Below, one piece after another: positions 906-36,176 of a stretch of 64,000 nucleotides of DNA. The number at the start of each line of letters is the position of its first letter. Within the stretch, counting starts at the first letter, position 1. The notes beneath the pieces are model-generated. The model did not search any database and had not been told where the DNA came from. It saw only the letters and a program-made list of their open reading frames with translations. A program made the position numbers and the translations under genes. The DNA is from Enchytraeus crypticus. Taxonomy: Eukaryota > Annelida > Clitellata > Enchytraeida > Enchytraeidae. The DNA is taken from assembly GCA_905160935.1 (NCBI GenBank), contig CAJHZI010000564.1:678501-742500 (forward strand). Reading direction: 5' to 3'.

Positions 906-3900
906 CATTGACGAAGAATCGACTATCTTGGACGGGTCTGTGGCTTCAGAGACATTCAGTGGAGTCACGAAACAGTTGGTCCCGACGCCTTCTGCTGATA
1001 TCTTTACGACTTGAAGTCCCTGTTATAGATTAAACGTATACAGGTAGAATAGATGCTCTAATTAGGCTACAAGTTCCTTGTTGATAAAATTAGACTCATG
1101 CATCATTAGGCCTACTAAATGAATTATTATTGACTATCCAGACTCAATTTAATGGTTGACAGGTAGCCTAGGCCTGCTAGTAAAAATCACAGTTTATGTA
1201 TCAAATCAAGTTAAAATTTAATTCTTGGAAGTAACTCTCTCTATTGAATTTTACTGCCGTTACTACCTGTTTTAGCAAAAACAAAAAACTAACTGGTCGT
1301 TGGAATAACTTAGGAGAACACACGATATGCAGTGTTCTGGCGTCCTGCATGTGACAGTCAAAAGTTAAAGTTCAAAGTATAAATTTCATTAAAATGGTAT
1401 ATCTGGAGTACAAGCAACCAATCCACTATAGATTACACATTGCAAATGGCTGCTTGCCTCCTTTAGCTAATGCACAAATTATTAATTCTTGATGTAATTT
1501 CTCAATACCTTTCAGAAAATTTCTCTTTGGAGTATAGAAAATCCTAAATAGGCAATAAAATCTTATCTAACTGCAAAACTATTACACCATTCTCGTCTTG
1601 TTAGCCAAAGGGAAAACCAATTCGGACCTAGAAGGAAGAGGGAGTTAAGTGGATCTAACTGAGACTTAAATTTCCCGAGTCTCTAGGGGTTATACTAGAG
1701 CGATATGCCCCTAGACGACCATATAATCCTAGCTAATATTATTCACAGGTATTCCATTCTCTAACTAGATCGACTCGTTATAATATGCGAAGAGGAAAGA
1801 TATTCAAAGATTGCATACCTTGTTGAAATCATTGATAACAACAGCATCATGACCTTGCTGACTTAAATGATACATGACGACATTGTCGTTAGGATCTGAC
1901 TCTACATCCTGGGTGATGTCATTATTCTTGCTTCCTTTAAACTGAAAGCTGAACTGTACATTTATAAAATCAACAGTATATTTTAAACTGGCTTCAAGTC
2001 AATAGTCTATCTAGACTATTTATGAGCTATAAGTAATTAATAAACATTTTTTCGTTTTTTTATAAATTATTGCAACTTGAAATTTCTTAAAACTTTTACA
2101 TTTTGCAATGAAAAATGACAAATTTTACAATTACGAAATACGAGTGCCTTGAGAACATCAAGATTTTGCAGCTTGGTATTAATTTGAGACTATATAGTTT
2201 TAAAGAAGAGTAAAGGTTAAATAGGGGCCTCCCTGCAGTCAATGAGATGAATGCCAAACATTAATATAACATCTAGATCTATATTCCGCATGCAGGCCTA
2301 CTTGTCGATTGTAAAATTCATTGTAGGCCTAATTTTAATTTGCTCTTTCAGTTATCATAATCACTACGTGGATATTTAAAATTTATACTAAGATAGGGAT
2401 GTCGGCCTTCAGACATATAGGCCTACTTAGTCATTCGATAAAAATCGTATACCTTGACGATCTCTTTCTGCGCCTGAGTGAAGAAGTACACTCCAAGAAT
2501 GATGCCCATGATGACCAGTCCAACGATCAGCACGGCTGCCACCGCATATGCGATGTACTTCTTGTGAGAGGACTTAGGTGCGGGCCTCGACTGAAATAAT
2601 TGATTAATTGTAAATGATTAGGCCTATCCATTGAGAATGTTCTTTATAAACTGTATGAAAAGGTAGCCTTATGACACTAAAGTGTAGGCAGGTAGCCCGA
2701 TGATACTGAATTACAGGCTACCATTACTGTTTGTTATGGTTTATTAAAATATTTAGGTCTATTAGAGTTTGATATAGAGTTATGTATTTTTATGGCTTGT
2801 TAATTAAAACTATCTATTAGGTCTGCAAAGGTATGTCAAAGATTTTCAGAAGCCATAAATTATCAATTGATACCAAAAAAAGACTTCTTCAAAGCTATAT
2901 TCAACCAATATTGTTATCTGGAAGTGAAGTTTGGGCAATCTCTTCTGTAATGGAATCGAAACTTGAGACAACAGAGATGTAATTCTATAGAAGAATGCTA
3001 CGTGCTACGTGTATCTTATAAAGACCACGTTAAAAATGAAGATGTTTTATAAAGAATGTCAACTTGTCGTGATCTATCGTAGCGAATACGACGACAACAG
3101 ATGAAGTTTTTCGAAACAAATTATGCGGAACAAAATAGTTGAAAATAACGTAGTGACAGGAATAATAGATGGCAAAAGATGCAAGGGTCGACAGCGGATG
3201 ACGTTTATAGGAGTCTTAGCAAATGGATACAGTTAACTGAAACAGAGATGATCAGAGCAACAATGAACCGAGACTTATGGAGGAATATGACCATGACCGC
3301 CCAGGCTTGGAGCAGGCACGGCACTTAGAGAAGAAGACTAGGTCTGTAGTTTGTTAAAACTATTAAAAATGATTTGCTAAAACTACTTAGTATAGGTTGT
3401 TAATTATGTACAGTGAGCGCTGGCTGGAACCAGTGGCGATGTCGGTAAGATACTCTACGGCGGATCAGTATATTCGAGGTTTAAATCCTGGGTTGGCCCG
3501 TCACTGACATCGCTTTCGAGTGAGGAAACTGACGTTAACATTAGTTTTTGCTTTTTTAAACTTTCTGGGCTTTTATGCTTTACTAGAACTGTTTAGTTTT
3601 TAGTTTATTAGATCTGTTTGATCTGCTTTTTTCTTAACTATTTACATGTACTACGATTTATGTTCCCATAGGCATATTCTAAACGTACGTGTATATACAT
3701 GCATACTGTATATTTGTTCATTTATCACGACATATAATAGTTTAACCTATAGGCCAATGCATAGGCTATATTCGATACACCCCGTAAAACACACTGTAAA
3801 ATTGCTCAACTGTAAAATTGCTCAACTGGCTGGAGCCATTGGCGAAGTCAGTAAGACACTCGACCGCGGATCAGTATGTGCTGGTTCAAATCCTGGGCTC

Positions 3901-4501
3901 GCCCGTCACTGACTTGCTTTCGAGTGAGGAAACTGCCGTTAACCTTAGCTTTTGTTAGCTTTGCTTTACATCTTGAACAGTAGCCAAATTAAGTTTTAGG
4001 TGGTGTAGGCTAAAAGGAAGAGATACGAAATTTTCTGAAACTATGCTCTATATACTAATATTAAAGTAGGTTAATATATCAATCCTGTAATATATGTAGT
4101 CCTATTAAGAAAATGACGAAGTTGTCATTTGATAACTAAAAAGTGTGAATGATTTTAACTATATTGACCGCTGGTTGACAACTACGCTTCTATATCTGAA
4201 TTGCTCACAAGCGTTTATAGCGTTCGTTCGCTGCATCTTGTTGATGCTGGACATCAAAAATTGATATCCTGCAAAAATTAATTTATATCAAAATTGTTAG
4301 TTTATTAACTCGTTAAGGTGTTAGTTTAGAGCGGTAGTATTTTTATAGTTGACTTACTAGTTACTGTTTAATGTCTGTGTTTATTTAGTAGCCTACTTTT
4401 AATCCAGAATAAAACAGAGATCTTACCTCGGTGGGACGTTCGGTCGACACGATGTAGGTCGGTGTATCGAAGGTCTCAGCGGGCTTTGTCTCACTCGTCA
4501 T
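906..4501 (-). CDS. BRICHOS-domain type II membrane protein, copy 1 (3'-truncated by window edge)
   Basis: Four minus-strand exons are visible: 4427-4501, 2453-2590, 1819-1953 and 906-1019 (75, 138, 135 and 114 nt, all phase 0, all GT-AG), giving the first 154 residues. Exon 1 encodes a short cytoplasmic tail starting MTSETKPAE. Exon 2 has a basic KK followed by one long hydrophobic helix (about residues 37-62) with no cleavable signal, so type II topology is expected. Exons 3 and 4 carry the first half of a BRICHOS-like domain: beta-rich QFKGS, the conserved Asp in VVINDFNKG, and the first Cys in VGTNCFVTPL. There is an N-glycosylation site NVS. By my alignment it differs from copy 2 at 15 of 154 residues. 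The exons for the second BRICHOS Cys and the Cys-rich tail must lie left of base 1. BRICHOS is a known intramolecular-chaperone domain of secretory precursors; the role here is inferred. Confidence 0.82.
2822..3345 (+). mobile_element. LINE C-terminal remnant, private to copy 1
   Basis: The plus strand reads as the C-terminal part of a non-LTR polymerase with several stops: a block resembling LLQSYIQPILLSGSEVWAI, then RRMLRAT, then a GKRCKGRQRMT-like basic block near 3170-3205. The related intron of copy 2 (around 18,360-18,420) runs through without it. The insertion is therefore younger than the duplication. Confidence 0.7.
3419..3565 (+). mobile_element. SINE-1 (tRNA-derived), shared by both gene copies
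   Basis: tRNA-like head: A-box-like TGGCGATGTCGG at about 3435 and B-box-like GGTTTAAATCC at about 3479. The tail reads CACTGACATCGC...GAGTGAGGAAACTGACGTTAAC, then T-rich. The copy at 18,487 sits in matching flanking sequence of the duplicated intron, so this insertion predates the duplication. Confidence 0.8.
3827..3965 (+). mobile_element. SINE-1 copy, private to copy 1
   Basis: Same family as 3419-3565, with A-box TGGCGAAGTCAG and B-box GGTTCAAATCC. A short direct repeat (AAATTGCTCAACTG) lies immediately 5'. I see no counterpart at the matching site of copy 2. Confidence 0.78.
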
Positions 4502-4663
4502 CTTTATTTTCATACTTCAGCTCAGTTTACCGACAAATGGCGCAACACCGCGAGATGCTACGAGGAAGAAGTGAACAGCGACAAAGTCTTCTGGCCGCAG
4601 AACTCTGAGAGATCAGTCGCAGAGACAACAAACCTCGAATATCCAAGTCGACTCGCTCGCTGA

Positions 4664-6395: not shown

Positions 6396-6869
6396 GACAT
6401 AATTATGCATGTACATTGTACATGTATATGTAGGCCCATAGGCCTATGTCTACGACGCATATATGTAATTTCTTTAATTTCAATACATAAATATTATGTC
6501 ATGATCCGACTTTTCATTTAGAAATTTGCTTCGCAAGAGCTTAGCGACAAACTGAAATAAATACTAATATTAGTTAAAGTAATGAAGTTTTAACTTTATA
6601 ATTCTATAAGCAACTTTAATAATATAAATACTGTTATAACGTCTATATGAGTATTAAATATACTTGCATTATTAATATATATTAATTTATCTTAAAGTTA
6701 ATATTGCGATACAAATTATGCTTCTGTGACAAAGACTGACTATTTGCAGTTGCTAAAAAGCCCTATTTAATCACTGAATTTAGCATATACTAATCATTGA
6801 ATTTATCATATAATTGCATATACTGCTTATTCCGTATATTCAATAAACCAATCAATTTAATTGATGTAA

Positions 6870-8421
6870 TGTGGATATTTAAGCCTTCTCTACCTAAAGA
6901 TGATCTTTCCAGTTACCGTCCTATTTCCAATCTTAACTTCATCTCTAAACGTCTTGAAAAGGTAATTTATACCCGTTTATGCACTCATCTTGATTCTTTC
7001 CCTTCTCTCTATCATTATTATTCTGCCTATAGAAAACTCCATTCTACTAAAACCGCTCTTCTTCGTATACATAAAGATCTTAGCTTGGCCATGAGTAGTA
7101 AACAGGTTTCTGCCTTGGTTCTTCTTGATCTCTCTGCTGCCTTTGATACAATTGACCATGGCATCCTAATAAATAGGCTTAAATCTTGTATTGGCATATA
7201 TAATTCTGCTTTTTCCCTTCTCACATCATATCTCTCATGTCGCACACAATCGGTTGTTATTGGTCAAAATCGCTCTTATAAACTGCCCCTTCTAAGCGGT
7301 ATTCCTCAAGGTTCAGTGTTAGGTCCATTGCTCTTCTCTTTATATATCACTCCTCTTAGCTACCTGCTTGCTCAGTCCTCCATAAATTTTCATTTCTATG
7401 CAGACGACACACAACTATATATTTCCTTTTCTAATCATGATTCCGATAAGAAACTGGCTCGTCTCTCATCCATTCTAGACAAGGTTTATTCCTGGTTTTG
7501 CGCTAACCGTCTTGCTGTAATCCCTTCAAGACTGAATACCTTTTAATTGGCACTCCTTTGCAAAGAAGTAAAATTACCAATAACTCTGTTAATATTCAGA
7601 ATCTTGCTCTTTCACCTTCTCGATCTGTCAAAAACCTTGGAGTCATATTTGATGAAAACCTTGACTTTAAATCCCATATCTCTTCTGTTTGTCGCGCTTC
7701 TTTCTTTCAGATTCGTCAGATTAGGCAAATACGTCTATCCCTTACTAGAAATTCAGCCACTATCCTTGCTAATTCTATAGTTCATTCAAAGCTCGACTAC
7801 TGTAATTCATTATTACATGGGTTGCCTACTTCTTCTCTCAATCGTTTGCAGCACGTCCAAGATTCTCTTGCACGTGCTGTTTGTAAGTCCTCTCGACTTC
7901 AATTTCGCTCTCTTTCTCTACTTCGCAGGCTTCACTGGCTCCCTGTTAATCAACGCATAAAATATAAAATGGCTCTATTAAGTTTCAAAACTCTGCGATT
8001 TGGCAAGCCTTCTTACTTATCTGAAATTCTTCTTCCCTATCGCCCCTCACGTACACTTCGCTCCACCGATGCCAATCCTCTCTCAGTTCCAAATATTCTC
8101 ACGTCATTGGGCAGACGTTCATTTTCTTACGCAGCACCCACATTCTGGAACTCTTTACCTGCTAATCTCCGCTCTTGTTTTTCTCTTTCAACATGCTCTA
8201 GCAAGCTTAAAACGTACCTTTTCCAACCATAGACATAATCAATCTACCTTGACCATTTTTTGATCACCGGATTGGCTTTCGTTTAGGACCTTACTTCTCC
8301 TCAGCACATTTCTTTCGCCCATTTGGTCTGGGTGAATTGATCTGTAGTGATATGTGCTGTTGGGGACGTCCCTGACATCATCCCTGGATGAGGAAGCGGA
8401 CGTTAAACCTTTATTACTATT

Positions 8422-12075: not shown

Positions 12076-12890
12076 CTTGTTCAGCTACCCAGGCAAAACA
12101 CAGGTCTAATGTTAATTTTAACATGTAAAATGTTAAAAAATGAAGAAATTAAAAAAGATAAATCAAAAAATATTAGAAGTTCACGATATAATATAATAAT
12201 TGGTAGACAATAGACGATTTAGTAATTAACGGTAAATATGGCGGAGGCAATGAAAAAGATTGATGATAGAAATGTTTGATAAAATAAATATTTGAAGATA
12301 GAAATGTTTTTCAAAGCATTGTAATTCAATATATAATATTAACAAAGGGCTTGCAAATATTTACGATTTTAATAAATTAAGGCAATAATGAAGTGCGTAG
12401 TTAAATGCAAGTCACATCGACATTAGTATATGATATAGGCTTGTATTAAATACTAAAATGTATTAGTTAAGCGACATCTTATACTAATACATTACAATAG
12501 TCGACCTCATTATATTTATTTCACAAGCAAGCACTATGATCGCAGCAAAATGAGATATCTTCTAATGGAATGACAACTTTGGTTCAAAGTTGGTCTAAAT
12601 AGTTTATTTTAAACAGTGACGAAAAAATTATTAAATTTTTGATTATTAAATCCAATAATCAGAAGTAGTAGCTTAATATAAAAGTAATCATGCAGTTAAC
12701 TGAAGTATCCAATACGTTATTATAGTTCAATTCTAAGACCTTCTGAGCGATCGTAGTTTTAGTGATTTTACACTGCATAGCTCATACGTATCATCTTCCA
12801 CTCACGACACACTGTTAAATCAATGATACGATGAAGTCTGATAGCTCGGTATTGAAATTCGAGTCTCTGGCTGGTTATTCAGGTCATTTA
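12076..12890. other. AT-rich stretch downstream of BRICHOS copy 2
   Basis: I see no gene or known repeat. It probably contains the 3' UTR of the minus-strand BRICHOS gene; a candidate AATAAA on minus lies at 12,603-12,608, about 390 nt past the stop codon, and another at 12,515-12,520. Confidence 0.35.
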
Positions 12891-13005
12891 GCTAACTCCT
12901 CAGTGCTGAATCATCTAGCTGACACATCAGTGCTGAGTCATCGAGCTGACACATCAGTGCTGAGTCATCTAGCTGATCCATCAGTGCTGAGCCATTTAGC
13001 AGACC
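12880..13005. repeat. 27-bp minisatellite overlapping the BRICHOS copy 2 stop codon
   Basis: Four to five units of a 27-bp motif; on plus the core reads CAGTGCTGAGTCATCTAGCT. The unit nearest the gene includes the TAA stop codon, and the array then runs into the 3' UTR. The 27-bp period is a multiple of three, but every unit has its own in-frame stop on the coding strand (CAC TGA), so the array cannot extend the protein. Confidence 0.88.
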
Positions 13006-16000
13006 ATCCCTGGCGTGTACCAATACGAGTAGTACAGGTATGTGCAGTACGGATAGGCTATGGGAGGACTGTAGTAGTTGTTTTGATAGCAGCACCAGGT
13101 GGTCTGATAGTAGGTGTTGCAATAGTATCTGTAACCGTCGAAGTACTCGGTCATTTGAACATAGCAGGCCCAATATGCCCAGCAGCAACTTCCCAGTCCT
13201 CTCATACGATACTTGGTTCCCATGTCGTAAATAGCGCGCTTCATAACTCCTTCATATAATACATAATGGATCATGATGGGCGAAATACTTTAAAGTAAAT
13301 ATTTATTAAATACTTTATGTAAATATTTAAATATTACAGATATTTTAAATACTTCCTAGAAGCATTTTCAAAATAAAATAATTGTCTAAAGTAATTTTGA
13401 AAATGCATAGTGAAACAGTATTTTGAAAGCAGTTTTTAAATTTATTTTATTTTAGGCTGCCGATATGTCCAATTTAATTGGATCGTTAAGGTTCAAAAAT
13501 AACCTGATAAAATGTTAGCTTCTTCGAAGGTGTTTAAGGACGCCATTATCCTATCTAGTCCGTCAGAAATTAAATACTCCCTTTTGATAATTAGGGCTTA
13601 TTATAGCTCTATTACTAAATTGTATGATTAATTTAAAACCAAGCATTGAGCCAATATGCGACTGCAGACACTATCATAAATTTCATATTTTAGAGAGATA
13701 CAACCAACATCCATAAAAGAAACAGTACGGAGTATTACTTTTCATGATCCCATTATATTGGGTACTGCAATAAGCTTATAGGCCTATTCATGAATATTTC
13801 CTACATTGGAATTTGACTTCACATCTGAAATTATGTCCTATATTTCAGTTTGGAATTCAAATTTACATTCAAAATTAAGGTGTCTCTTCGAAACTTCAAA
13901 TTCAACACTAAAAAACTAGCATTCGAATTGCACCTATTTAATCGCACCTAAATGTATCATTATCAGGCTGCAAGCTGGTGCAATTGCACCAGATAGTACT
14001 GGAAAATGATACATTTATGTGTTATTAAATTGATGCACAGTTTCCATCTGCACTTATATTTATGCCCTTCGAAATGTTAAGTTTATGTTGAGAAATGTAT
14101 GAAAGTCTGGACTAGTTCCACTTTCATTGGAGATTATTCGGCCAGTTGTGCAGATATTTTGGTGCAATTGCACCAGATTGTAGCTGAATAATAAAACATT
14201 TATGTGCAAATAAATTGGTGCACTTCTGATGCGTAGATTTTGCTTAATTTAGTATTGAATTTGACATTTCGAAAAAACGCCTTCATTTCGAATGGGAAGG
14301 TCAAACTGGAATATAGGACATTCATCAATATGATTTTCATCAATGAATGGGCAATTATCTGAACACTTACGAAGAACTATTTGTACTATATTAATCAAGA
14401 CAGATTAATTCACTTTTATTAAGACTAGAGGGAGAGGGAGAGAGAAGGACATTAAGTCATTGTTATTTATTTTAAACTCTTTCACGTACTCCACAAATCT
14501 AATCTTTACCTGAATCTGAGGTTGTTTCGTTTGCGGGCAGCATCTTCTCTTTGTCCAAACATTTCTTCCTGGCCCAGTACAGCGACACACCCGAGCACGC
14601 GTCAGCAGCCTTTTTGGTGAGGAAGGAACGATCAGCGACGGGCGTGTGCTCAATTTCGAATGGTAGGGATCCTTCGTTTCCTCCATTATGATTTCCGCTT
14701 CCCATCTATAAGCACACATAAAAAATCTGTCATTACTATTAGAAGCGAAGATGAACTAGTAAAATCTAGTATAAACTAGATGAAAATGTACGACATAAAC
14801 TAGTAAAATTAATATAAACGATGTGGGAACAAGACTAAGTGAAAATCACTAAATAAATTATTTGTACAAATTTCATTTGATTAATTCGCTATACTATTAC
14901 GATATGACTATTACGATATACTATTGCGAAGTAATATAATTTAGTTTGGATTTAGAATGGGATGCAGTACAGCAGAAGCTATAGGGTTGATGCGAGTCAT
15001 ATGTAAACCCAGCTTAGAGCCGGAAAATGATACTTTCATATAGATCTTTCTTTGTAGATTTTGAGAAAACTCTAGACAAGGTAAGCTGGGTGAAGTTATT
15101 TGGAATTTTGAGAAAGATTTGAGCAAATTGGAGAGAAGATTATTTATGAATTTTTACGAATCAGAGCGTAATAATCAAAATTCAATAGAAGTTATTAAGG
15201 GAGGGAGGAATAGGACTGGAAAAAGTCTGTTGCATGTCACCACTTCTATTTAACGTTTACGCAGAGGCAATGATGATGGAAGCAATGGATAACACTGAAG
15301 AAGGAATAAATACTGGAGGTGTAAGATTTGCAGATAATCAAGGTTTGATTTCTAGTAGTGAAGCTGGTTTACCGAAAATTGTGAATTGCCTGAACATTAT
15401 TGCATTAATTAAAGTATGCAATAAATATTTATATACAGAAAACCAAATTGACGAGTGTGTCTAGAAGAAAAGGCAGATAAGTCAACTTAGAAATAGACGG
15501 TACGAAGTTGGAACAGGTTAAGAGTTTCAGAATTGAGTATACACGATGATAAGATATGAAGAAACTCCAAACCAGTCAGTAACCAATCAGAAGCTTTAAA
15601 ATAATTTATCGAATATTCTTAAATTTCTATCAGAAATCTGAACACACAATCATGTTTCTTACCAGTGACGAAGAATCGATTATCTTGGACGGGTCTGTGG
15701 CCTCAGAGACGTTCAGTGGAGTCACGAAACAGTTGGTCCCGACGTCTTCCACTGATATCTTTATGGTTTGAAGTCCCTGTATAGAATACACTCATACTGA
15801 TAGAATAAATACTATAAATAGGCTTTTCGATCGTTTATCCTGATTTTAAAGTCGTTGCAAAACAACTAAAGTACTATTGTCCATCATTACAAAGCTAAGG
15901 CTCTCACATAGCCTAGGCCAGCAAGTAAAAATAGCAGTTTTTGAGCAAAATCAAATTTTAAAGTTAAACTCAAATTTATGCATGTATTTCACTGGAATTT

Positions 16001-19000
16001 TACTACTATTAAAAGCTTGTTGTAGCGGAAATCTCACTGGTTGCAGAAGTAAAGCTGATAAAGTTAGTGTCCACATCAGTTTCCTCACTCAAAAGCGATG
16101 TCAGTGACGGGTAAGCCCAGGATTTGAACCCGCACATACTGATCCGCGGTCGAGTATCTTACCGACATCGCAACTGGCTGGAACCAGTGCAGATGTCGGT
16201 AATAGCGTTAAATGAATAGCATTAAATGGCAGAGAAAATATGACATGCAGCATTCTAACGTCCTAAATCTGACCGTCAAAAGGTAAAGGTCAAATCATAA
16301 ATGCAATAAATTTCATTCAAATATTAGGGCCAATATTTTAAGTACAATCAGCCGGTATTAAACTAGATTGTAGACTGAAAATTGCTACTTGCCTCCTTCA
16401 GGATGATTTATTCCTTATGTAATTTGTCATTTCCTTTTAAAAGATTTGTCTTCTTTGTGTACCGGTAGAAAAATCTTGAATAATATTATAATATTATCTA
16501 GTAAGATAAATATTACAAATGGACCTAATCTTGTTAGACGAGCATTTGGAGCGTAAAACGAGGAGGGAGTTAAATGAATCTGAGAGAAATTTCATAAATC
16601 CTTAGAGTGCAAGTTTATACCCATGTGTTATTCCCCAGGTACTTTCATGGAGGTAACATTATTAACAGGTAATTCATTTTTAAATAGGCCTACGCATTAT
16701 AATAATGAATGATATTGGAGGAATGATATTCGAGGAATGCTTACCTTGTTGAAATCATTTATCACAACAGCATCATGACCTTTCTGACTTAAACGAAACA
16801 TCACGACATTGTCGTTAGGATCTGATTCCACATCCTGTGTGACGTCATTATCTTTACTTCCTTTAAACTGAAAGCTGAACTGTATAATTAATCAATAATA
16901 ATCAATTTGTAAACTGTTTTCACGTAAATCGCTAGTTTAAACTGTTTTTACGGTATAATTAATTAACAGTGATGGGACGAGACCAAGACCTGTCTTGAGT
17001 CAAGACAGTCTCGAGACAGTATTTTACTGTCTTGATCTTGCGGGTCACTCTCTTGGTCCTGGTTTTGCAAAAACTGTCTTGGTCTTGCAAGACCAAGACT
17101 TGTCTTGCAATTAACTTGTGAGATGGAAATATTGTACTTGTTCATATCTTAACGTTGATGCACACAAAGAAGTGCTTTTTGCTTAAGTTGAATCCAGATT
17201 ACTTAAATCTCTTTTCATTCAGTTGATATTTGTTATATTTACTAATGCTGAAAACTCCTTCTAAACTTTCTCATATTGCTTCTTAATACTCAATTTGTTT
17301 GTACTCATATCGCAGTCAGCATTTGTATTTTTAAACAGATATTCCTGGTCTCATTATAGGCTTTCAGCATGATATAGACCCATTCTTCTATCTACATGTA
17401 AGCCTAATATTCATTTCCAAACATGAAACAAAAGTGTTTTCGTCGTTGACCTATACCAATATTCTGACATAATAACTATTTATTTCTTAAGCCGCTGAAT
17501 ATTTGAGACGATTTAGTTGATTGATGTTATGTTGTCATGCTTGCTTTGTACTTAAGTCTTGGTCTTGGTCCTGCGGGTCATTGTCTTGGTCTTGTAAAAC
17601 TGTCTTGGTCCCATCACTGTTAATTAATAAACAATTTTTCTTTTAGTATTAAAATTAACGTATAACAACTGAAAAAAAGTATAGCGTTTACATGTTACAA
17701 TTAAAAAATTAGGAATTTTTAATTTTTTTCTTTCCTTGAAAAAAGCAAGAAAGAGCTTGAGATTGACATGAGATTCTACAATTGTAAGAAGGGTACATAG
17801 GTACAGATATCTAACTAAAGTTAAACATCTATATCCCACAAATATAGACCATTGCAGGCTTCTAATAGTAGTCCGCTCTTTCTTTTAACAAAATCAAGAT
17901 ATGATTATTGGAAATTTCTATTAATATATGCTTATTTACTTTGTATCTGTTTATTATTGTAACTATACAAATACATGTATATTGCCATTCTGTAAAAATC
18001 AAGATATATCAGACCTTGACGATCTCTTTCTGTGCCTGAGTGAAGAAGTACACTCCGAGAATGATGCCCATGATGACCAGTCCAACGATCAGCACGGCTG
18101 CCACCGCATATGCGATGTACTTCTTCTGAGAGGCCTTGGATGCGGGCTTCGACTGAAATATTTGATTGATTTTAAATGATTAGCCAATCTGTAGAGAAAG
18201 TATTCGATTTTGTAAATAATAGGAAAAAGTCATCATTACCTACAGGCTACTGTATATTATGAAAACTGTATATTATGAAAACTGTATATTATGGTTTTGC
18301 TAAACATTTAATAATAATTATAGTGTATGTACTAAAACTACGTGTTGTTATGGCTTGTTAAAACTAGATATGCTTTTGGTATAGTTTGTTAAATTTATTC
18401 ATCATGATTTTTAAGACTATTTAGTATAATGTGTTAAAACTGTTTAGGCTATAATGCTTTCCTTTCCTAAAACTATTTATCATCTTCGCTGGAGCCAGTG
18501 GCGAAGTCGGTAAGATGCTCGACCGCGGATCAGTAGGTGCGGGGTTCAAATCCTGGGCTCGCCCGTCACTGACATCGCTTTCGAGTGAGGAAACTGACGT
18601 TAACTTTAGCTTTTTTTAGCTTTTTATCTTGACTTGTAAAATCTATTTGATATCATGATAGGGTTTTAAAAAATATTTATTATGATTTATATTCCCATCC
18701 ACCTACGATAAACCTACGACATATACATGTATTTATTTGTTAATTTATCACGACCTAATACCTTTATCTTTAGGCTGAATTCTTTATATTATTCGTTATA
18801 ATTATTTATGTATTAAGAAATAGGAAGAAGAGTTGGATAGGACACATTCTAAGGGCGGAAGGTCTATTAAAAGAGGTCATGGAAGGTAGAATGGAAGGAA
18901 AAAGAGGCAGGGGCAGGCCGAGATTAGGTATGTTTGATGATTTAAAGACCCACTGATATGTGGAAATGAAGAGGAAGGCGGGAGACAGAGAAGAGTGGAG

Positions 19001-20226
19001 GCGTTATGTACCATGGACCTGCCAGTAGGCAGTGCACTAAGAGAGAGAGAGAGAGATAACTATTTGTAATTTTTGACACCCCGTAGGCCTATACCGAACT
19101 ATAAAATTAGGCCAACCTGACACTTTGAACAGTAATTAAGTTTTAGTTGTGGTAATTGAAAGAGATATCTTTTCCAGAAATGTTGGCCTACTTTAGTCTA
19201 CTCATATTAAAGTAAGCTAATATTTCAATCGTGCGTTATTTGTTTTACGAAAACTGTGAAATAAATTTTGATATCTAAAAGTGTTAGCAGTTTTAACTAA
19301 ATTGACAGCTGATTGTAGATCAGGTATCTGAATTATTAAGGGGCGTGTTGTGATAAAGTTCTGATTCTCATTGATCTTTGTTTAGGCCTTAATGTGCAAT
19401 TAATTTTATTTACAGTTGCACTGTGAACTCACAATTTTCCTGCCAGAATTAAATTTAGAAATTAATCTTCAATTCATAATTAATTATTAGATTTATTTAA
19501 ACCACAATATAACTCATAAATCAGCAGAGCATATTTTGTTGGTCATCATCGCTTGCAAAGTTTCATCTTGATCTCCGAATGGTCGACTGCTGAACTCGAA
19601 TCACGGACCTAAATGTACCTCGCAGTTAAATTCATTGCTCTATTTTGAGTGCTAGCCAGTGGAACGGCAGAATAAAAAAAATAGATATTAATAAATAGAA
19701 TTTACATAGAAAATGTTAGCTAACACGTGTATTAATTCTTGCTGTTGTCGTGTTGATTCAAAAGGGTCTCTCTCTTAGTTCACTGCCTACTGGCAGGTCC
19801 ATGGTACACTAAACGCCTCCACTCTTCTCTGTCTCCCGCCTTCCTCTTCATTTCCACATATCAGTGGGTCTTTAAATCATCAAACATACCTAATCTCGGC
19901 CTGCCCCTGCCTCTTTTTCCTTCCATTCTACCTTCCATGACCTCTTTTAATAGACCTTCCCCCCTTAGAATATGTCCTATCCAACTCTTCTTCCTATTTC
20001 TTAATACATTTAGAAAGAAGAGATGGATAGGACATTCTAAGGGGGGGAAGGTCTATCAAAAGGGTATTTATTATAATTTAATTTTCAGCTGTTATTTAAT
20101 ATAATTAGTTATTTTTTAGCTTTTTAAATTGAACTAAGGCAGAGATCTTACCTCGGTGGGACGTTCGGTCGATACGATGTAGGTCGGTGTATCGAATGTC
20201 TCAGCGGGCTTTGTCTCACTCGTCAT
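12996..20226 (-). CDS. BRICHOS-domain type II membrane protein with Cys/Tyr-rich tail, copy 2 (complete)
   Basis: Six minus-strand exons: 20,152-20,226; 18,015-18,152; 16,745-16,879; 15,663-15,776; 14,510-14,705; 12,996-13,249. Together 912 nt, closing in frame to 303 aa. Order: cytoplasmic tail 1-34; KK then a single transmembrane helix about 37-62; a beta-rich linker and BRICHOS-like domain about 72-205, with conserved Asp in VVINDFNKG, Cys132 in VGTNCFVTPL and Cys191/Cys203 near ADACSGVSLYWARKKC; N-glycosylation sites NVS (138) and NET (213); then a last exon with 8 Cys (241, 242, 248, 263, 272, 273, 288, 303), 20 Tyr and 4 Trp in 83 residues. Type II helix, BRICHOS and an 8-Cys aromatic tail is the layout of vertebrate chondromodulin/tenomodulin, and the ~300 aa length fits. 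BRICHOS also fronts annelid antimicrobial precursors, so a released peptide is an alternative. The acceptor of the last exon (TATATGAAG) is the weakest junction. Function is inferred. Confidence 0.85.
13834..14321. mobile_element. Non-autonomous element with long terminal inverted repeats (intron 5 of BRICHOS copy 2)
   Basis: The ends are inverted copies: ATGTCCTATATTTCAGTTTG at the left and CAAACTGGAATATAGGACAT at the right. Imperfect pairing continues inward for roughly 90 bp (TTCGAAA and CAAATTCAA blocks). Two internal copies of the perfect palindrome GGTGCAATTGCACC lie at about 13,978 and 14,161. No coding capacity and no clear target-site duplication, so the superfamily is open. Confidence 0.7.
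14941..15560 (+). mobile_element. Decayed LINE-R reverse transcriptase remnant, intron 4 of copy 2
   Basis: Plus-strand LINE-R pieces with frameshifts: FGFRMGC-like block at the start, then SPLLFNVYAEAMMMEAMD at about 15,237-15,290 and VRFADNQG at about 15,320, where the catalytic FADD has become FADN. Same place and orientation as the remnant at 1-805. Confidence 0.8.
16068..16200 (-). mobile_element. SINE-1, private to copy 2
   Basis: Minus-strand copy: complement of the tail (TCAGTTTCCTCACTC), B-box as GGATTTGAACCC, and complement of the A-box region ending at the CTGGAACCAGT head. Flanks match 1250-1330 of copy 1, which lacks it. Confidence 0.8.
16967..17619. mobile_element. hAT-like MITE with perfect 8-bp target-site duplication
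   Basis: Ends are CAGTGATGGGAC and GTCCCATCACTG, flanked on both sides by TTAATTAA (16,959-16,966 and 17,620-17,627). Sub-terminal GTCTTGGTCTTG-type repeats occur in both orientations. 653 bp, no coding capacity. An 8-bp duplication and CAGTG ends are hallmarks of the hAT superfamily. In intron 2 of BRICHOS copy 2; the paralogous intron at about 2033-2048 shows the uninterrupted site. Confidence 0.9.
18487..18620 (+). mobile_element. SINE-1, shared with copy 1 (3419)
   Basis: Well-preserved copy: A-box-like TGGCGAAGTCGG, B-box GGTTCAAATCC, then the GAGTGAGGAAACTGACGTTAAC tail. Surrounding intron sequence is homologous to that around 3419-3565. Confidence 0.85.
18808..19062 (+). mobile_element. 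LINE-R 3' end
   Basis: C-terminal LINE-R block (GHILRAEG and GKRGRGRPRLG-like) followed by ACCATGGACCTGCCAG...GGCAGTGCACTAAG and a (GA)n tail. Private to copy 2. Confidence 0.85.
19762..20003 (-). mobile_element. LINE-R 3' end, inverted relative to 18,808-19,062
   Basis: Nearly the same sequence as 18,808-19,062 in opposite orientation about 700 bp away. It meets a short plus-strand LINE-R piece (20,004-20,066) head to head at a CTTCTTCC...GGAAGAAG-type junction. The pair could fold into a long hairpin in the intron 1 transcript. Confidence 0.85.
20004..20066 (+). mobile_element. LINE-R fragment (head-to-head with the previous element)
   Basis: Plus-strand piece reading AGAGATGGATAGGACATTC then GGTCTATCAAAAGG, the segment just upstream of the usual LINE-R end; it then stops. 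Confidence 0.7.
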
Positions 20227-20388
20227 CTTTATTTTCATACTTCAGCTCGGTTTATCGACAGATGGCGCAACACCGTGAGATGCTACGAGGAAGAAGTGAA
20301 CAGCGACAAAGTCTTCTGGCCGCAGAACTCTGAGAGATCAGTCGTAGAGACAACAAACCTCGAATATCCAAGTCGACTCGCTCGCTGA

Positions 20389-20395
20389 TTTTATA
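20389..20395 (-). promoter_or_regulatory. TATA box of BRICHOS copy 2
   Basis: TATAAAA on minus, 163 bp before the start codon, the same spacing as in copy 1. The block between TATA and ATG is almost unchanged between copies. Confidence 0.6.
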
Positions 20396-24879: not shown

Positions 24880-25555
24880 AAAGAGAGATAGAGAGAAGTA
24901 TGAAAAATCTAAGCTGCACAAAAATGTAGTCTGCATATTGTGAAGTGTATTAATTTTTTTAATGTTTTAAATTATACTTTAGCTCACTATTTTCACAATC
25001 CTACTTTTAATGGTTTTTCTAAAAGGTAAAAAGTATTTTATGCAAAATAGCTTTAAAAGTATTTGGACCATCACGGTAGTGCCTAAAAGTTATTGGGCCA
25101 AGTGTTCCACTTGAGCTCTTGCTGACAGTGATTTGCTTAGCATATTTTATTGCTGCACACTTATTCTGCAGATTTATTGGCTGCCATTTTATTGAAATGC
25201 GCTTTAGTGGGTCAAATCTCAATCTAAATAAAATTGCAAATAGGAACAAATTGCAAAAGTAGGGCAAAATTTTCAAGAAAATTCAAATTCAAATAATAAT
25301 GAATGAGCTAGAATACAGACTTTATGAGTTGTATGAGTTGATGAGTTGTGTATAGGCTCTCAGTTTGTAAATAATAATGAGCTTAAATTTGACAGATACA
25401 ATAAATGGAGTGAAAAATTAAATATTGTTGTATTTGCTGCAGATTGGCGTATATGTATTTCGTCAGAATAAAGCCTCAGCTTAAGTACTACTACTCGAAA
25501 GCATATCATTGACGCATTAGACTAGGAACCTAACACAGACTAGGTTATATATATG
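24380..25555. other. No identified gene; (CT)n at 24,843-24,880
   Basis: AT-rich. 24,640-24,780 resembles the stretch at 48,915-48,990 (GCAACTAAACAAGAACTGA-like). A minus-strand open stretch at 25,019-25,276 (85 codons, including LGPITFRHYRDGP) looks protein-like and could be a transposon fragment, but I do not recognise it. Confidence 0.35.
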
Positions 25556-25558
25556 TGT

Positions 25559-25579
25559 GTATATATATATATATATATA

Positions 25580-25646
<67 letters not shown>
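25559..25646. repeat. (TA)n microsatellite
   Basis: About 40 TA units with one CTG interruption, abutting the truncated 5' edge of a LINE-R copy. Confidence 0.95.
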
Positions 25647-25649
<3 letters not shown>

Positions 25650-26221
25650 AATAATCGCATTCAGTCGAAAGCAGAGATGATACTGAGCAAGACACAATTT
25701 GGTTTTAGGAAAGGATGTGGCACAAGAGAAGCAATAGGGGTAATGCGGGTTCTTTGCGAAAGAAGCTTAGAATATGGAAATGACGTTTTTGAATGCTTTG
25801 TAGACTTCGAGAAGGCCTTTGACAGGATTGATTGGATAACGATGATGAATATCTTAAAAAGAATAGGAATTGACTGGAGAGATAGAAGACTAGTTTTGAA
25901 CTTGTACATGAATCAAAAAGCAGTAATCAAAATCCTACAAGACTACTCAGAAGAAGGTGAAATAGGACGTTGAGTAAGACAAGGTTGTAGCATTTCGCCG
26001 CTGCTGTTTAACATTTACGCTGAAGCAATGAAGGATGAAGCCATAGAAGACTTGGAAGAAGGAATAAAAGTAGGAGGGAATTTGTTACAAAATGTACGTT
26101 TTGCAGATGACCAAAGAATGGTAGCGGGCAGCGAGATTGGATTGCAGAAGATAATGGATAGGCTGAATGATACGGCTTTGAGATATGGCATGAAGATTAA
26201 TATAAAAAAGACCAAGGTTAT
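25640..26221 (+). mobile_element. LINE-R reverse transcriptase, 5'- and 3'-truncated
   Basis: The clearest LINE-R polymerase in the window. Blocks in order: TQFGFRKGCGTREAIGVMRV, VDFEKAFDRIDW (motif A), an in-frame TGA at 25,971 where RRGVRQGC-type sequence is expected, SPLLFNIYAEAM, VRFADDQR (catalytic FADD, here followed by Q), and MKINIKKTKVI. This domain order is typical of RTE-like non-LTR elements. It stops abruptly at 26,221, joined to part of a SINE-1. Inactive. Confidence 0.88.
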
Positions 26222-30018: not shown

Positions 30019-33000
30019 TTATGGAGCTCCGTTGCCAAGTTTCTGTTTGTTGAACTTTTCAAGCATGTCCACGAGATGGCAGTGACAGTTTGACGCGGCC
30101 ACAAAGCTCTTTGCGTGCTGTCGACCCTCGACCTGCTCGTGTGCCACTAGGGTCGTGTTAGTGACGACCAGGTCGATGTAGTCCTCGATCATCTCGACGT
30201 CAACCTTCTCGAACCATTTCTCGTCCTCTGTGTCGATGTCCTGTCTGATCAACCATATGATGTGGTCCACCAGCAGGGGCAGCAAGCACACTAAAGAGTA
30301 TCAATCAATCTATGCATTGATCACTAAATGAAAGAAAGAAAGAGAGATAGAAAGAAAGATAGGAGGAAAGACAGAAAGAAAGAAAGAGAGTGAGTGAGCG
30401 AGCGAGCGAGCGAGTGAACGAGTGAGTGAGTGAGTGAGCGAAAGAGCGAGCGAGTGTGTAAGTGAATGAGTTAAATAATTAACATGAAGCAATCAAACTA
30501 TCAACATAATATCATATCTTATAACAACATACTGTATTAACATATAATTAACATATCTATCAATAAATCAAAGAATTCCATATCGTAAGTGACTAAGTCA
30601 CCTAAAAATAGGCAAATCAGTCATTATGTAAAACAATCAATAAATCAATCAGTTAATATATCGTTTAGGCTTTCAAATAATAATTCGTTTAATCGTTAAG
30701 AATATCTGCATGTCACATGTGTCGAACATATACTTCAATCTATGCAATTCACGATTCAATTAATTAATTAATATTTCCTAGTAAAATGGCATAAATAAAA
30801 ATATATATAATTAGAGTAAATTCAATTTCAACGCTTCAAAAATTCTGTTGAATTTTCGTAACAGGCATAACGAAATATACTGTAAAAAGGAAAAGATTTT
30901 CAAAGAATCAACCTTGAATTTCTTCGTCGATTTTTTCCTTAATAAACATCATGCGCTGCTCTGGAATGGCCTTATCTTCGTTTAGATTCCGATCGGTTTT
31001 TTCTTTTATGGCCGCATACAACTGTTTCACCAGAATAGACGCAAACTCCCTGAGAGCCTTCTCAGAAATTAATTTACCAACATCTTGTTCTTGATCTTGA
31101 TAGCCAAATTGATCCTTGCTGTCGGTCTTCGTCGTGCCGATTGAATTCCTGGACTTGATGATCGAATCTGCGGATCCGCTCGACTGTCTTTCTGAAGACC
31201 TGCTCGATAGAGGAATTGAAGGCATGTCAATCAGTGCGGACGTGCGTTTGGATTGGGATTCTGTAGATGATGCCGGATTCCCTTCCATCGATGATATCGA
31301 AGACTTTACGCCGGAGTCTGATACTATCGCGGAGTTCAATGGAGATCCGGGAGTTTTGGGATTCGGCTCAACTTTGGTATCCTGAGTGGTAAAGATGGCC
31401 GTATCATGGGGAACTGAAATTCTAACGGATGGTTTGTGCACGGATGTTTCTGCTTTCTTCTTTTCAGGAACAGGTGAGTTGTATATTGATGATGGTTGTC
31501 TGGAGGAAGATTGCGAATCTCTATTTTCACGAGTTCCTCCAAATTCGCCGCCTAATGTCATTCGTTCTTTTGGAATCTCCGTATCCGTATCAGAATCATG
31601 ATCTTGATGATCGAAATCCGGAATGCTGGATCCGAAACTGAAACGGAAGCCGGTTTTTCTGGCGTCTTCCGTATCATTCTCATCCTCATCCGAGCTCTCA
31701 CCGTTATGACTGTTCTGAGATGTATTACGGGCTCTTTGAAAATCATCGACTTCGCCATCACTCGTTCGACTCAGTTCATTCGAACTAGACGGATTTACAT
31801 CATTAGCATTCCAGTTTCTGTTCATCAAATCCTTTAAATCGATCGATCCATGCGATGTAGTAGCTGACGTCGTATTGCCATTGTCATGCTGAGATAAGAT
31901 GGCGGGTTTATTCAAAACGTCCGGAAGGGTTTTAGGAGACCCGATCATCTCGATGTTCAAAGTTTGCCATACCGGTTTAACTGATTTCAGGTGACTATTG
32001 TACCACTCCGTGAACACAACATCACCAGTTGAACGTGACTCACTCTCTGATCCAGACGTCTTGCATTCTCTCGATGAATTGAAACCTCTACGATGTTTGC
32101 TACCATGGCGCTTTTCTCTGTCGACTATAAGATGGTTCACAGGGTCATCCGAGTGCTCAAAGGTTACCGAGCAGTCGAATATACACGGTGGATCCGAAGG
32201 ATGAACCCTCGCCTTTGTCGCTATGTCGATGTCGCTGGAGCTACTGCTACTGTTTGTTTCGTATTCTTTCTGACGGTCGCTATACGTCCGGCAGGAAGAG
32301 CGGGACTTCAGCTGACCTGCTTTTGATCTTCTTCGACGTCGGACGAAAACTATTTCTGGATAACGACAAGACGTGGTTCGCAGTGGCCTCGGCTGGACAG
32401 TCTGGTTGGGTCTAATTGTGATGTTGACTGGACTGAACTCCGGTGTAGTTGAGATGTCTGTCGTCTCGCTGAGATCTGATGCTTGGCTCTGATGGTCAGC
32501 CTTCGTCTTACTTGTCTGCTGCTCAACATCTTGGTTTGATCTATCTGCTGGCTGGACTGCCGGGGGTGGACTGAATTCGGGGATTATCTCTCCTTCGAGT
32601 TTTATGATAGGAAGAGCATTTGGGCCATCGTTGTTCTCAACAGGCTCTTGAAAGCCTCTCGAGAACATTTTGAAAAGAAATTCATCCATTTCTTCATGGT
32701 CTTTCTCTAGTATGCTGAGTTGACCGAGCAGTTCTTTCAGTGTAGGTTCTTGATAAGAGACTTCATTTGTGTCTCTAATTTTCGCCTCAGCATGCGAGTC
32801 AGAGTTGCAATTGGGTCTCTTGATACTTCCTTCGGCATGTCTGACAGAGATGGATCGAGGCAAGGTGGAAGCGTCAAAGTCCTTCAAATCAAACTCCGAG
32901 ATAACAGTGTAAAGATTTGAAGAAAAGTTTATGTTTCCCTCAGGATTCGCGGTTTCCCATAAGATGAGTGTCTTAGGATAACCGCACTTGTTGTCGTCCG

Positions 33001-33997
33001 ACTGTTCAGTGAGCACCAGAACTTTTGGTCGGCTCGTACAATCATCTGCAGCCTGACTCTTGTTCACAATCGGCAGACGTAACGGGGCATCTTCCGTGCA
33101 GTTTTCACTAGAAGAACATATCTTGCGAGGTGGCTTCTTTCCAAACCTCGAAACCGGTGTACAACAAGGTGTCTTAGCCTTCGACTGACAACATATATCC
33201 ACGACTGGATTGCCACAGATATCCTTCGGTACGGTGCAGCACGTGTCGTTGATGATATTGCAGAAGTTCTGATATCTACATCTGGGACTGAGCATAAATC
33301 GATCTTTTTCACCTCTCCATTGTTTCTTGGCGTCTCTCACTCGATTTTCATCGTGTCTGGAACTACCGGCGTCCAAGTCTGTTGAATCATATACCTGTGG
33401 GTAGCAGGTTCTGAAGCGAGGTCCCGGTGGAACGATCATCCAGTGAGTATTGCCTTTATCTCTGTAGTACTGTCTCCTTCCGTCGTGATCATACATGGCT
33501 GACGGCTGCACTGCCGGCGCATCCTCGCGACACTTTGGAGGGTGGTATTTCTTGAACTCAGCCGGACTTACGAATTCTTGAGATATTGGCAAGTCTGTTT
33601 CTCTCTCATACATCTCGTCATCGATGAAGCAGGAGGGCATGCATACAGGTTTCTCCGGACAATCCTGTCTCGTTGAATTGCCAGCACTGATGAGATCACA
33701 GACCTCCCGAACACTGTAGAGGCACCGTCGTGGTTTAAATTCGCACGTCTCACTGTCAACAACACCGTAACACATTTCATTATCGCTCAATGACTTCGCC
33801 GGAGCTCGGACGGGTCGATTGCAGGAGGAATAGTAGCTTTTCCTCGCGTGCTCTTCTGTCGCTATTCGATTAATCATCGACTCGCTGAATCTGGACTGTA
33901 TTCCTTCTGAGGCGCTGGACCTGGCCATTAGCTTGTCAATGGGTGAACACAAGGAGCCCAGGAGAAGACAGTTGTCAGGCGAGCAGTCTGAAGGCAT
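30019..33997 (-). CDS. Large uncharacterised, mostly disordered protein (about 1118 aa, two coding exons)
   Basis: Exon 1 30,913-33,997 is one uninterrupted frame of 1028 codons starting at ATG 33,997, with an in-frame stop some 66 nt upstream. Splicing ATTCAAG|GTTGAT to ACTCTTTAG|TGTGC at 30,290 keeps frame and adds 89 residues to the TGA/TAA-bounded end at 30,019. The protein is rich in Ser, Asp, Glu and Pro, with a Cys-rich first third (pairs such as DTCCTVPKD, DICCQSK, TPCCTP), a run of five Arg near residue 550, and acidic/Ser-rich low complexity in the middle. It ends with what looks like the only folded part: helical segments such as LREFASILVKQLYAAIKEK, continuing into exon 2 (LLVDHIIWLI, EMIEDYIDLVV). 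I recognise no family. Long exon and composition would suit a scaffold or ciliary/spermatogenic protein, but that is a guess. Further 5' exons cannot be excluded. Confidence 0.8.
30325..30460. repeat. (GAAA)n / (GAGT)n / (GAGC)n microsatellite
   Basis: Purine-rich tetranucleotide tract in the single intron of the uncharacterised gene. Confidence 0.9.
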
Positions 33998-34009
33998 CAG
34001 GACCCAGTG

Positions 34010-34520
34010 ATTGGAAACTACAGGAGATCTCGATAGTCTTCTTCTGGTCGGTCATCGATGGCTATTAGTGCAATGATCTAGATATCATTCAAGTGTTTTT
34101 GATTGTATGGATATGGCTTTACCGATAGGACTTGTAAAATTTTGCGAAGATTACATTATTAATTTTGAGAATAGCCTATACTTTTGTAACAGAAAATTTC
34201 ATTCCTCAGGAAAACATTAATTGATTGTATTTGTAACTGTTTAATTGGTTGAATTATTTATTTCATAGTTAATAAAATGTATATAACTTGATGATATCTA
34301 AAAATATTAATTTCTTATTGTAAAAAATTAATACTCAGAAGGATAAAAATCAAGATTCAATATTAGGCTATGTACATGTATAATAAAATAATAAACAATA
34401 ATTTTATTACCCTGTCCACTGTTTGCTCTTCAACCTTATCAGAGGAAAAATTAGAATATACATATAGCCCTAATTCTACTAGCATGTAAACTTGCAATAC
34501 TTTAATAATAATAATAATAA
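34010..34520. other. Upstream region of the uncharacterised gene; nothing identified
   Basis: AT-rich, no repeat family recognised. It should hold the 5' UTR and promoter, but I see no convincing core element. Confidence 0.3.
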
Positions 34521-35945: not shown

Positions 35946-36176
35946 ACACACATTATAGTGAAATGATCAACTACGTTGATATCTATCACTTTTAATACCG
36001 CATGTTTAAACCGTTAGGCAATTTAGTCCATTGTCCGCGTAGCCAGTCCAGTGAATGTGCGAGATTTTACTCTCAGATAAGCGCGACTGGGATTCGAACC
36101 CACGAGGGCTCAATTCACCTCAGGAATTATCATTTAAAACCTCATGACGTTACCCCTACGCTATTGAGACATTCAA
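35946..36176 (-). mobile_element. SINE-2
   Basis: Near full length on minus, with B-box GGGTTCGAATCCC at about 36,090-36,102. Like the 34,525 copy it is next to an (ATA)n run (35,930-35,945), here its probable 3' tail. Confidence 0.85.

Follow-up and report, generated by a model that had tools for sequence, protein, structure and literature searches.

The stretch of DNA analysed here, 64,000 nucleotides in length and referred to as the window (positions 678,501 to 742,500 of contig CAJHZI010000564.1), contains on its minus strand a gene for a BRICHOS protein with a predicted N-terminal membrane helix and a cysteine-rich C-terminal tail of 79 residues. We hold with moderate confidence that it encodes an annelid BRICHOS proprotein which chaperones and releases a peptide held by four disulphides, probably an effector of the host-defence type. 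The parts of this reading differ in strength. A chaperoned and released peptide is likely, and a role of that peptide in host defence, proposed by analogy with annelid relatives, is given slightly less than an even chance. Five copies of the gene have been identified, all on one contig (C471), of which four are intact (copies 1 to 4, the gene of the window being copy 1) and one is degraded (copy 5).

Copy 1 extends from 20238 to 12996 on the minus strand and comprises six exons in a single frame, with GT-AG dinucleotides at all the borders and phases 0,0,0,0,1. The product has 307 amino acids from the ATG at 20238 and the stop codon is at 12998-12996. The features of the gene, in the coordinates of the window, are given below.

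20389..20395, minus strand: TATA-like box TATAAAA, 157 bases before the ATG
20152..20238, minus strand: exon 1, start ATG at 20238; predicted cytosolic N-terminus, residues 1-29
18015..18152, minus strand: exon 2, residues 30-75; single predicted transmembrane helix, residues 45-63 (18107-18051)
16745..16879, minus strand: exon 3, stem and start of BRICHOS; Asp of the NDFN motif, residue 117
15663..15776, minus strand: exon 4, BRICHOS; first Cys, residue 136
14510..14705, minus strand: exon 5, end of BRICHOS (Pfam match to residue 202); second Cys at 195, third Cys at 207; linker
12996..13249, minus strand: exon 6, Met-Lys-Arg site at 13244-13236; 79-residue tail with eight Cys at 13235-12999; stop

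An initial annotation of the window had placed a gene of six exons closing in frame at 12996..20226, with one N-terminal transmembrane helix and a BRICHOS-like core. The exon structure, the helix and the BRICHOS core are all borne out. The interval does correspond to one gene copy, but the window also contains, at 4513-906, exons 1-4 of a second one, and the start codon at 20226, which would give 303 amino acids, is probably to be replaced by the ATG at 20238, because copies 2, 3 and 4 begin with MK at the equivalent ATG and because copy 1 has an in-frame TGA two codons upstream. A TATA-like box is located upstream of the ATG in all the four intact copies, at a distance of 157 bases in copies 1, 2 and 4 and 155 bases in copy 3; the box of copy 3 is unaligned with those of the other copies in MAFFT.

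The only hydrophobic segment of copy 1 has its best 19-residue window at residues 45-63, with a Kyte-Doolittle value of 2.97, and no second helix is indicated, since none of the hydropathy windows that begin farther than 15 residues from the best one exceeds 1.6. The strongest hydrophobic stretch of copies 1-3 falls within residues 43-63, with no distant window above 1.6. Residues 7-75 of copy 3, which include the membrane helix, also show a sub-threshold similarity to the Pfam family of the surfactant protein C N-terminal propeptide (E 0.00055, 20.1 bits, cut-off 25).

The BRICHOS profile of Pfam, with a curated cut-off of 25 bits, matches residues 110-202 of copy 1 with an E-value of 5.1e-9, and the domain has been assigned to all the intact copies with scores of 36.7, 43.4, 37.9 and 41.4 bits in copies 1-4 (E 5.1e-9 to 4.1e-11). 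The BRICHOS superfamily is described as conserving only one Asp and two Cys (PMC10182729; PMC2751770). Candidates for these residues are present in the four intact copies at Asp117 (118 in copy 3), located by eye from the NDFN motif, Cys136 and Cys195 (190 in copy 3), and a third Cys is shared at residue 207 (202 in copy 3). The profile match and these candidate invariant residues confirm, at the level of sequence, that copy 1 belongs to the BRICHOS superfamily. No solved BRICHOS structure was found in PDB by sequence with the full protein of copy 1; the best match (E 0.37), to an antibody chain, covers residues 252-286 in the tail.

Every intact copy has a tail of exactly 79 residues, the last of which is the final cysteine. 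The spacing of the cysteines, x16-CC-x5-C-x14-C-x8-CC-x14-C-x14-C, is identical in all of them, and 31 of the 79 positions are invariant, including all the eight Cys. Identity to the tail of copy 1 amounts to 62/79 in copy 2, 39/79 in copy 3 and 60/79 in copy 4. The counts of 8 Cys, 20 Tyr and 4 Trp given for the last exon in the initial annotation are correct and fall entirely within the last 79 residues, the four residues that precede them holding none. Its description of the tail as an 8-Cys, Tyr/Trp-rich region is upheld for the cysteines in every intact copy and fails for the aromatic residues. With 20, 16, 12 and 16 Tyr and 4, 4, 0 and 4 Trp in copies 1-4, richness in Tyr and Trp is rejected as the defining trait because copy 3 has only 12 Tyr and no Trp, and the conserved signature, as read from the aligned tails, is the 8-Cys spacing. 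The net charge of the tail is +1, -4, +2 and +11 in copies 1-4.

Lys-Arg directly precedes the tail in each of the four copies, in the form of Met-, Ser-, Asn- and Asn-Lys-Arg in copies 1-4, and copy 3 carries Arg-Asn-Lys-Arg. This agrees with the earlier suggestion that the tail is the effector part of the protein, and it is the probable released part. The mean beta propensity is highest in the tail, 1.12-1.14 as compared with 0.98-0.99 for stem and BRICHOS in copies 1-3, by Chou-Fasman values.

Searches with the tail alone (copies 1-3) gave no match in Pfam and none in NCBIfam, a prokaryote library and thus a weak test, and a profile search of PDB gave nothing better than E 2.5. The full protein of copy 1 shows three sub-threshold Pfam matches besides BRICHOS. 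NfrA_C (residues 208-278, E 0.018, 15 bits, cut-off 25) overlaps the tail and is regarded as a chance match; it did not recur with the tail by itself or, at E <=0.01, in copies 2-4. The 8-Cys spacing is not described in the titles or openings of abstracts among the literature matches listed, a scope that leaves out most subscription papers.

Searches of the genome covered 524 Mb in 802 contigs, and the numbers of matches are lower bounds. With the tail as query six matches were obtained, five on C471 at E <=2.3e-21 and one elsewhere (C333, E 7.43) which is dismissed as noise. With residues 1-224 all the 22 matches are on C471 and, by position, all in the five copies. The genome scan with the Pfam BRICHOS profile returned one match, copy 3; these Pfam and protein scans for BRICHOS score the best candidates only, exon by exon, so that a divergent BRICHOS gene could escape them. 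Copy 3 (L006 910-6076) has a single exon in place of exons 4 and 5 of the other intact copies. Copy 5, near C471:987460-995568, retains only the last 41 of the 138 bases of exon 2, its exon 4 match is split across two frames and its exon 6 contains a TGA. The architecture of copy 1 is regarded as more than chance because four intact copies keep it whole, with Ka/Ks of 0.28-0.31 for the region preceding the tail in pairs of copies 1, 2 and 4, and with a TATA-like box upstream of each. Scans of prokaryote and viral contigs gave 66 and 40 pattern stretches respectively with no relative confirmed, as expected for an animal gene. The exons of copy 2 are located as follows.

4427..4513, minus strand: copy 2, exon 1
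2453..2590, minus strand: copy 2, exon 2
1819..1953, minus strand: copy 2, exon 3
906..1019, minus strand: copy 2, exon 4
L002:9033-8838 and 7918-7665: copy 2, exons 5 and 6, past the left edge of the window in the adjoining contig stretch

Copies 1, 2 and 4 also have a minisatellite with a 27-bp unit, located at the stop codon or immediately downstream of it.

12883..13008, no strand assigned: 4.7 units, overlapping the stop codon of copy 1 and extending into its 3' flank
L002:7603-7673: 2.3 units, at copy 2
L029:1765-1939: 6.5 units, just after copy 4

The host is very probably an annelid, judged by its genes of the Eryth_link_C family, the family of annelid erythrocruorin linkers, which is not known from other animals. 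Five matches were identified in the genome, all five over the cut-off and four of them on one contig, and none of the 14 control genomes has any. A search for mollusc haemocyanin gave no match in the genome and none in the control genomes either, so that it is no evidence of absence.

We infer membrane anchoring, BRICHOS-assisted folding, cleavage and release because the published annelid precursors share this plan. The N-terminal helix, recognised by hydropathy, would anchor the protein in the membrane of the endoplasmic reticulum in type II topology. The luminal BRICHOS domain, by what is known of the family, may act as an intramolecular chaperone for the disulphide-rich tail. A proprotein convertase would then cut after the Xaa-Lys-Arg observed at residues 226-228, and a 79-residue peptide would be released, its eight conserved cysteines presumably paired in four disulphides. 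The plan of the annelid precursors is described as a signal peptide or transmembrane segment, BRICHOS, a dibasic site and a C-terminal peptide (PMC6780910, PMC6265681, PMC10745061, PMC9410094, PMC9756803), and some of the echiuran and Heteromastus precursors are type II membrane proteins (PMC10745061, PMC9410094). Host defence is the role reported for the characterised annelid BRICHOS relatives.

The precursors of annelid BRICHOS antimicrobial peptides (AMPs) considered for comparison are arenicin, alvinellacin, capitellacin, nicomicin, UuBRI-21 and the HfBRI series. The present genes resemble them, as far as they are described, in phylum, hydrophobic segment, BRICHOS, Xaa-Lys-Arg dibasic site and C-terminal peptide, and tandem duplication, as in the present cluster, has been reported for preproalvinellacin (PMC5431198). 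Most of the described AMPs are cationic peptides of about 18-38 residues with at most two disulphides, whereas the present tails have 79 residues, 8 Cys and charges from -4 to +11.

The initial annotation had considered that the tail may be new. This stands with respect to Pfam, NCBIfam and PDB, but the kind of protein is not new, because Cys-rich annelid BRICHOS membrane proteins are already in print, namely AmIMP1/2 of Arenicola and HfBRI-75/-91 of Heteromastus (PMC10745061). AmIMP1/2 are named integral membrane proteins, Cys-rich and BRICHOS-related, and are likened to the present genes by description only; where it refers to the marina transcriptome, the same paper cites Stanovova et al., whose title indicates work on coelomocytes. 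HfBRI-75/-91 are similar in length to the present tail, have no pronounced cationic property and are filed with the annelid BRICHOS-AMPs though longer and non-cationic (PMC10745061). They differ from the present genes in having 11 Cys and, by the wording of that paper, signal peptides. By such comparison of descriptions, the present genes may belong with AmIMP1/2 and HfBRI-75/-91.

Ka/Ks before the tail and in the tail is 0.31 and 0.34 for copies 1 and 2, 0.30 and 0.47 for copies 1 and 4, and 0.28 and 0.79 for copies 2 and 4. Comparisons with copy 3 show saturation of the synonymous sites in the tail and near saturation elsewhere; the tail Ka of copy 3 relative to copy 1 is 0.45. The tail changes special to copy 2 amount to a net charge of -5 over 11 residues and those special to copy 4 to +7 over 13 residues, and copy 1 has one special change. 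Random single-base replacements were simulated in 20,000 draws, the starting codon being the one shared by most of copies 1, 2 and 4, or that of copy 1 where all three differ. With all sites open to change, the shift of copy 2 and that of copy 4 were each reached in about 0.1% of the sets; with the variable sites only, the fractions were 0.45% and 0.04% respectively. The opposite shifts in charge are a hint of divergent pressure on copies 2 and 4 and no proof of it. A fixed scaffold with diverging surface residues and charge fits an extracellular effector better than it would a structural protein of fixed composition.

A number of observations weigh against the proposal of a chaperoned peptide for host defence. 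Annelid BRICHOS-AMPs are described as short and cationic (PMC6780910), and only the tail of copy 4 (+11) is clearly cationic, that of the window copy being +1 and that of copy 2 being -4. Of the three pairs, only copies 2 and 4 show a significant excess of tail replacements (Fisher p 0.0075, uncorrected for three tests), the values being 0.39 and 0.14 for the other two pairs, and the charge test was devised after the charges were seen. In preproalvinellacin the pattern is reversed, with strong purifying selection on the peptide and diversification of the precursor (PMC5431198). AlphaFold models place mature tenomodulin and chondromodulin outside the BRICHOS groove (PMC9714404), so that it is uncertain whether a folded Cys-rich tail would be chaperoned by way of the groove.

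An unlikely alternative, the strongest of those considered, is a matrix or growth regulator of the chondromodulin/tenomodulin type, in which the cut tail, folded into a small domain with four disulphides, acts on the own cells of the animal or on the extracellular matrix and not on microbes. The near neutral charge of the window tail and the retention of the Cys scaffold across strongly diverged copies are consistent with it, and the chondromodulin-like layout noted in the initial annotation is indeed found, with type II topology (predicted), BRICHOS, a putative convertase site and an 8-Cys C-terminal domain. These layouts are compared by description. Vertebrate chondromodulin-1 (CNMD) and tenomodulin (TNMD) have the first three in common with the present genes, and human CNMD has a like order, with the transmembrane segment at 45-65, BRICHOS at 104-201, the furin site RERR and a mature part that also has 8 Cys in four disulphides (PMC11173128). 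The same source describes CNMD and TNMD as restricted to vertebrates, and the mature part of CNMD has 120 amino acids as compared with 79 here. The present host carries annelid marker genes, and oppositely charged copies are unexpected for a single matrix factor. The spacing of the cysteines in human CNMD is presumably different from that of the tail.

It is improbable that the tail is never released, the protein acting as a membrane-bound chaperone with the Cys-rich tail as a part of its ectodomain. Bri3 appears to remain membrane-bound (PMC10182729), and copies 1, 2 and 4 have Lys-Arg only, lacking the further Arg upstream that would complete a furin site. Two observations, however, argue for release: most of the BRICHOS peptides reported in PMC9410094 follow an Xaa-Lys-Arg, and all four copies have conserved Lys-Arg although the linker in front of it diverges.

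Still less probable is a structural, adhesive or cross-linking protein, with the tail contributing its Tyr and Cys to dityrosine or disulphide links in cuticle, mucus or tube. The 20 Tyr and 8 Cys among the 79 residues of the window tail would suit this role; copy 3, however, is down to 12 Tyr and no Trp with unchanged Cys spacing, and a fixed small disulphide scaffold is unlike the low-complexity adhesives.

The possibility that exon 6 is an accidental open frame wrongly joined to the gene model, to which we assign next to no probability, is rejected because a homologous exon 6 of equal phase, tail length and Cys spacing occurs in the three further intact copies. Its acceptor at 13,249, for which confirmation had been advised earlier, has no clear polypyrimidine tract (context ccattatgtattatatgaag), and is supported as far as DNA can show, since copies 2 and 4 share its AAG|GA junction. 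The acceptor of the last exon in copy 3 is better than that of copy 1 and ends in TTCCAG.

Other features have been observed in the window. An open frame of 1047 residues from stop to stop at 30908-34051 on the minus strand, with no Pfam match at E 0.1, may be a large coding exon that belongs to another, unrelated gene. Reverse-transcriptase-like frames are located at 6794-8232, 39925-41500 and 25521-25973 on the plus strand and at 61809-63650 on the minus strand; RVT_1 is confirmed at 6794-7546 and 40262-41500 and lies just below the cut-off at 25521-25973, the rest being judged by eye. Two plus-strand frames of 184 and 129 residues (43421-43975 and 44421-44810), with no Pfam match at E 0.1, look by eye like pieces of mobile elements. 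A tRNA-Leu (gag) predicted by ARAGORN at 36078-36157 on the minus strand may be a tRNA-derived repeat, and no Rfam match was obtained in the window at the gathering score.

As to the proposed BRICHOS proprotein with a released peptide, it is tentatively suggested, as a somewhat unlikely extension, that the cluster represents a new class of annelid effectors, in which a fixed scaffold delivered by BRICHOS has been driven to opposite charges (-4 to +11) in neighbouring copies for different targets. Most studies of BRICHOS chaperones concern short clients, either amyloid-prone peptides or hairpins. A client of 79 residues with 8 conserved Cys, present in several diverged intact copies, would provide a natural series on what a BRICHOS domain can chaperone, and the tails of the cluster are candidate defence peptides that share one scaffold and carry very different charges.

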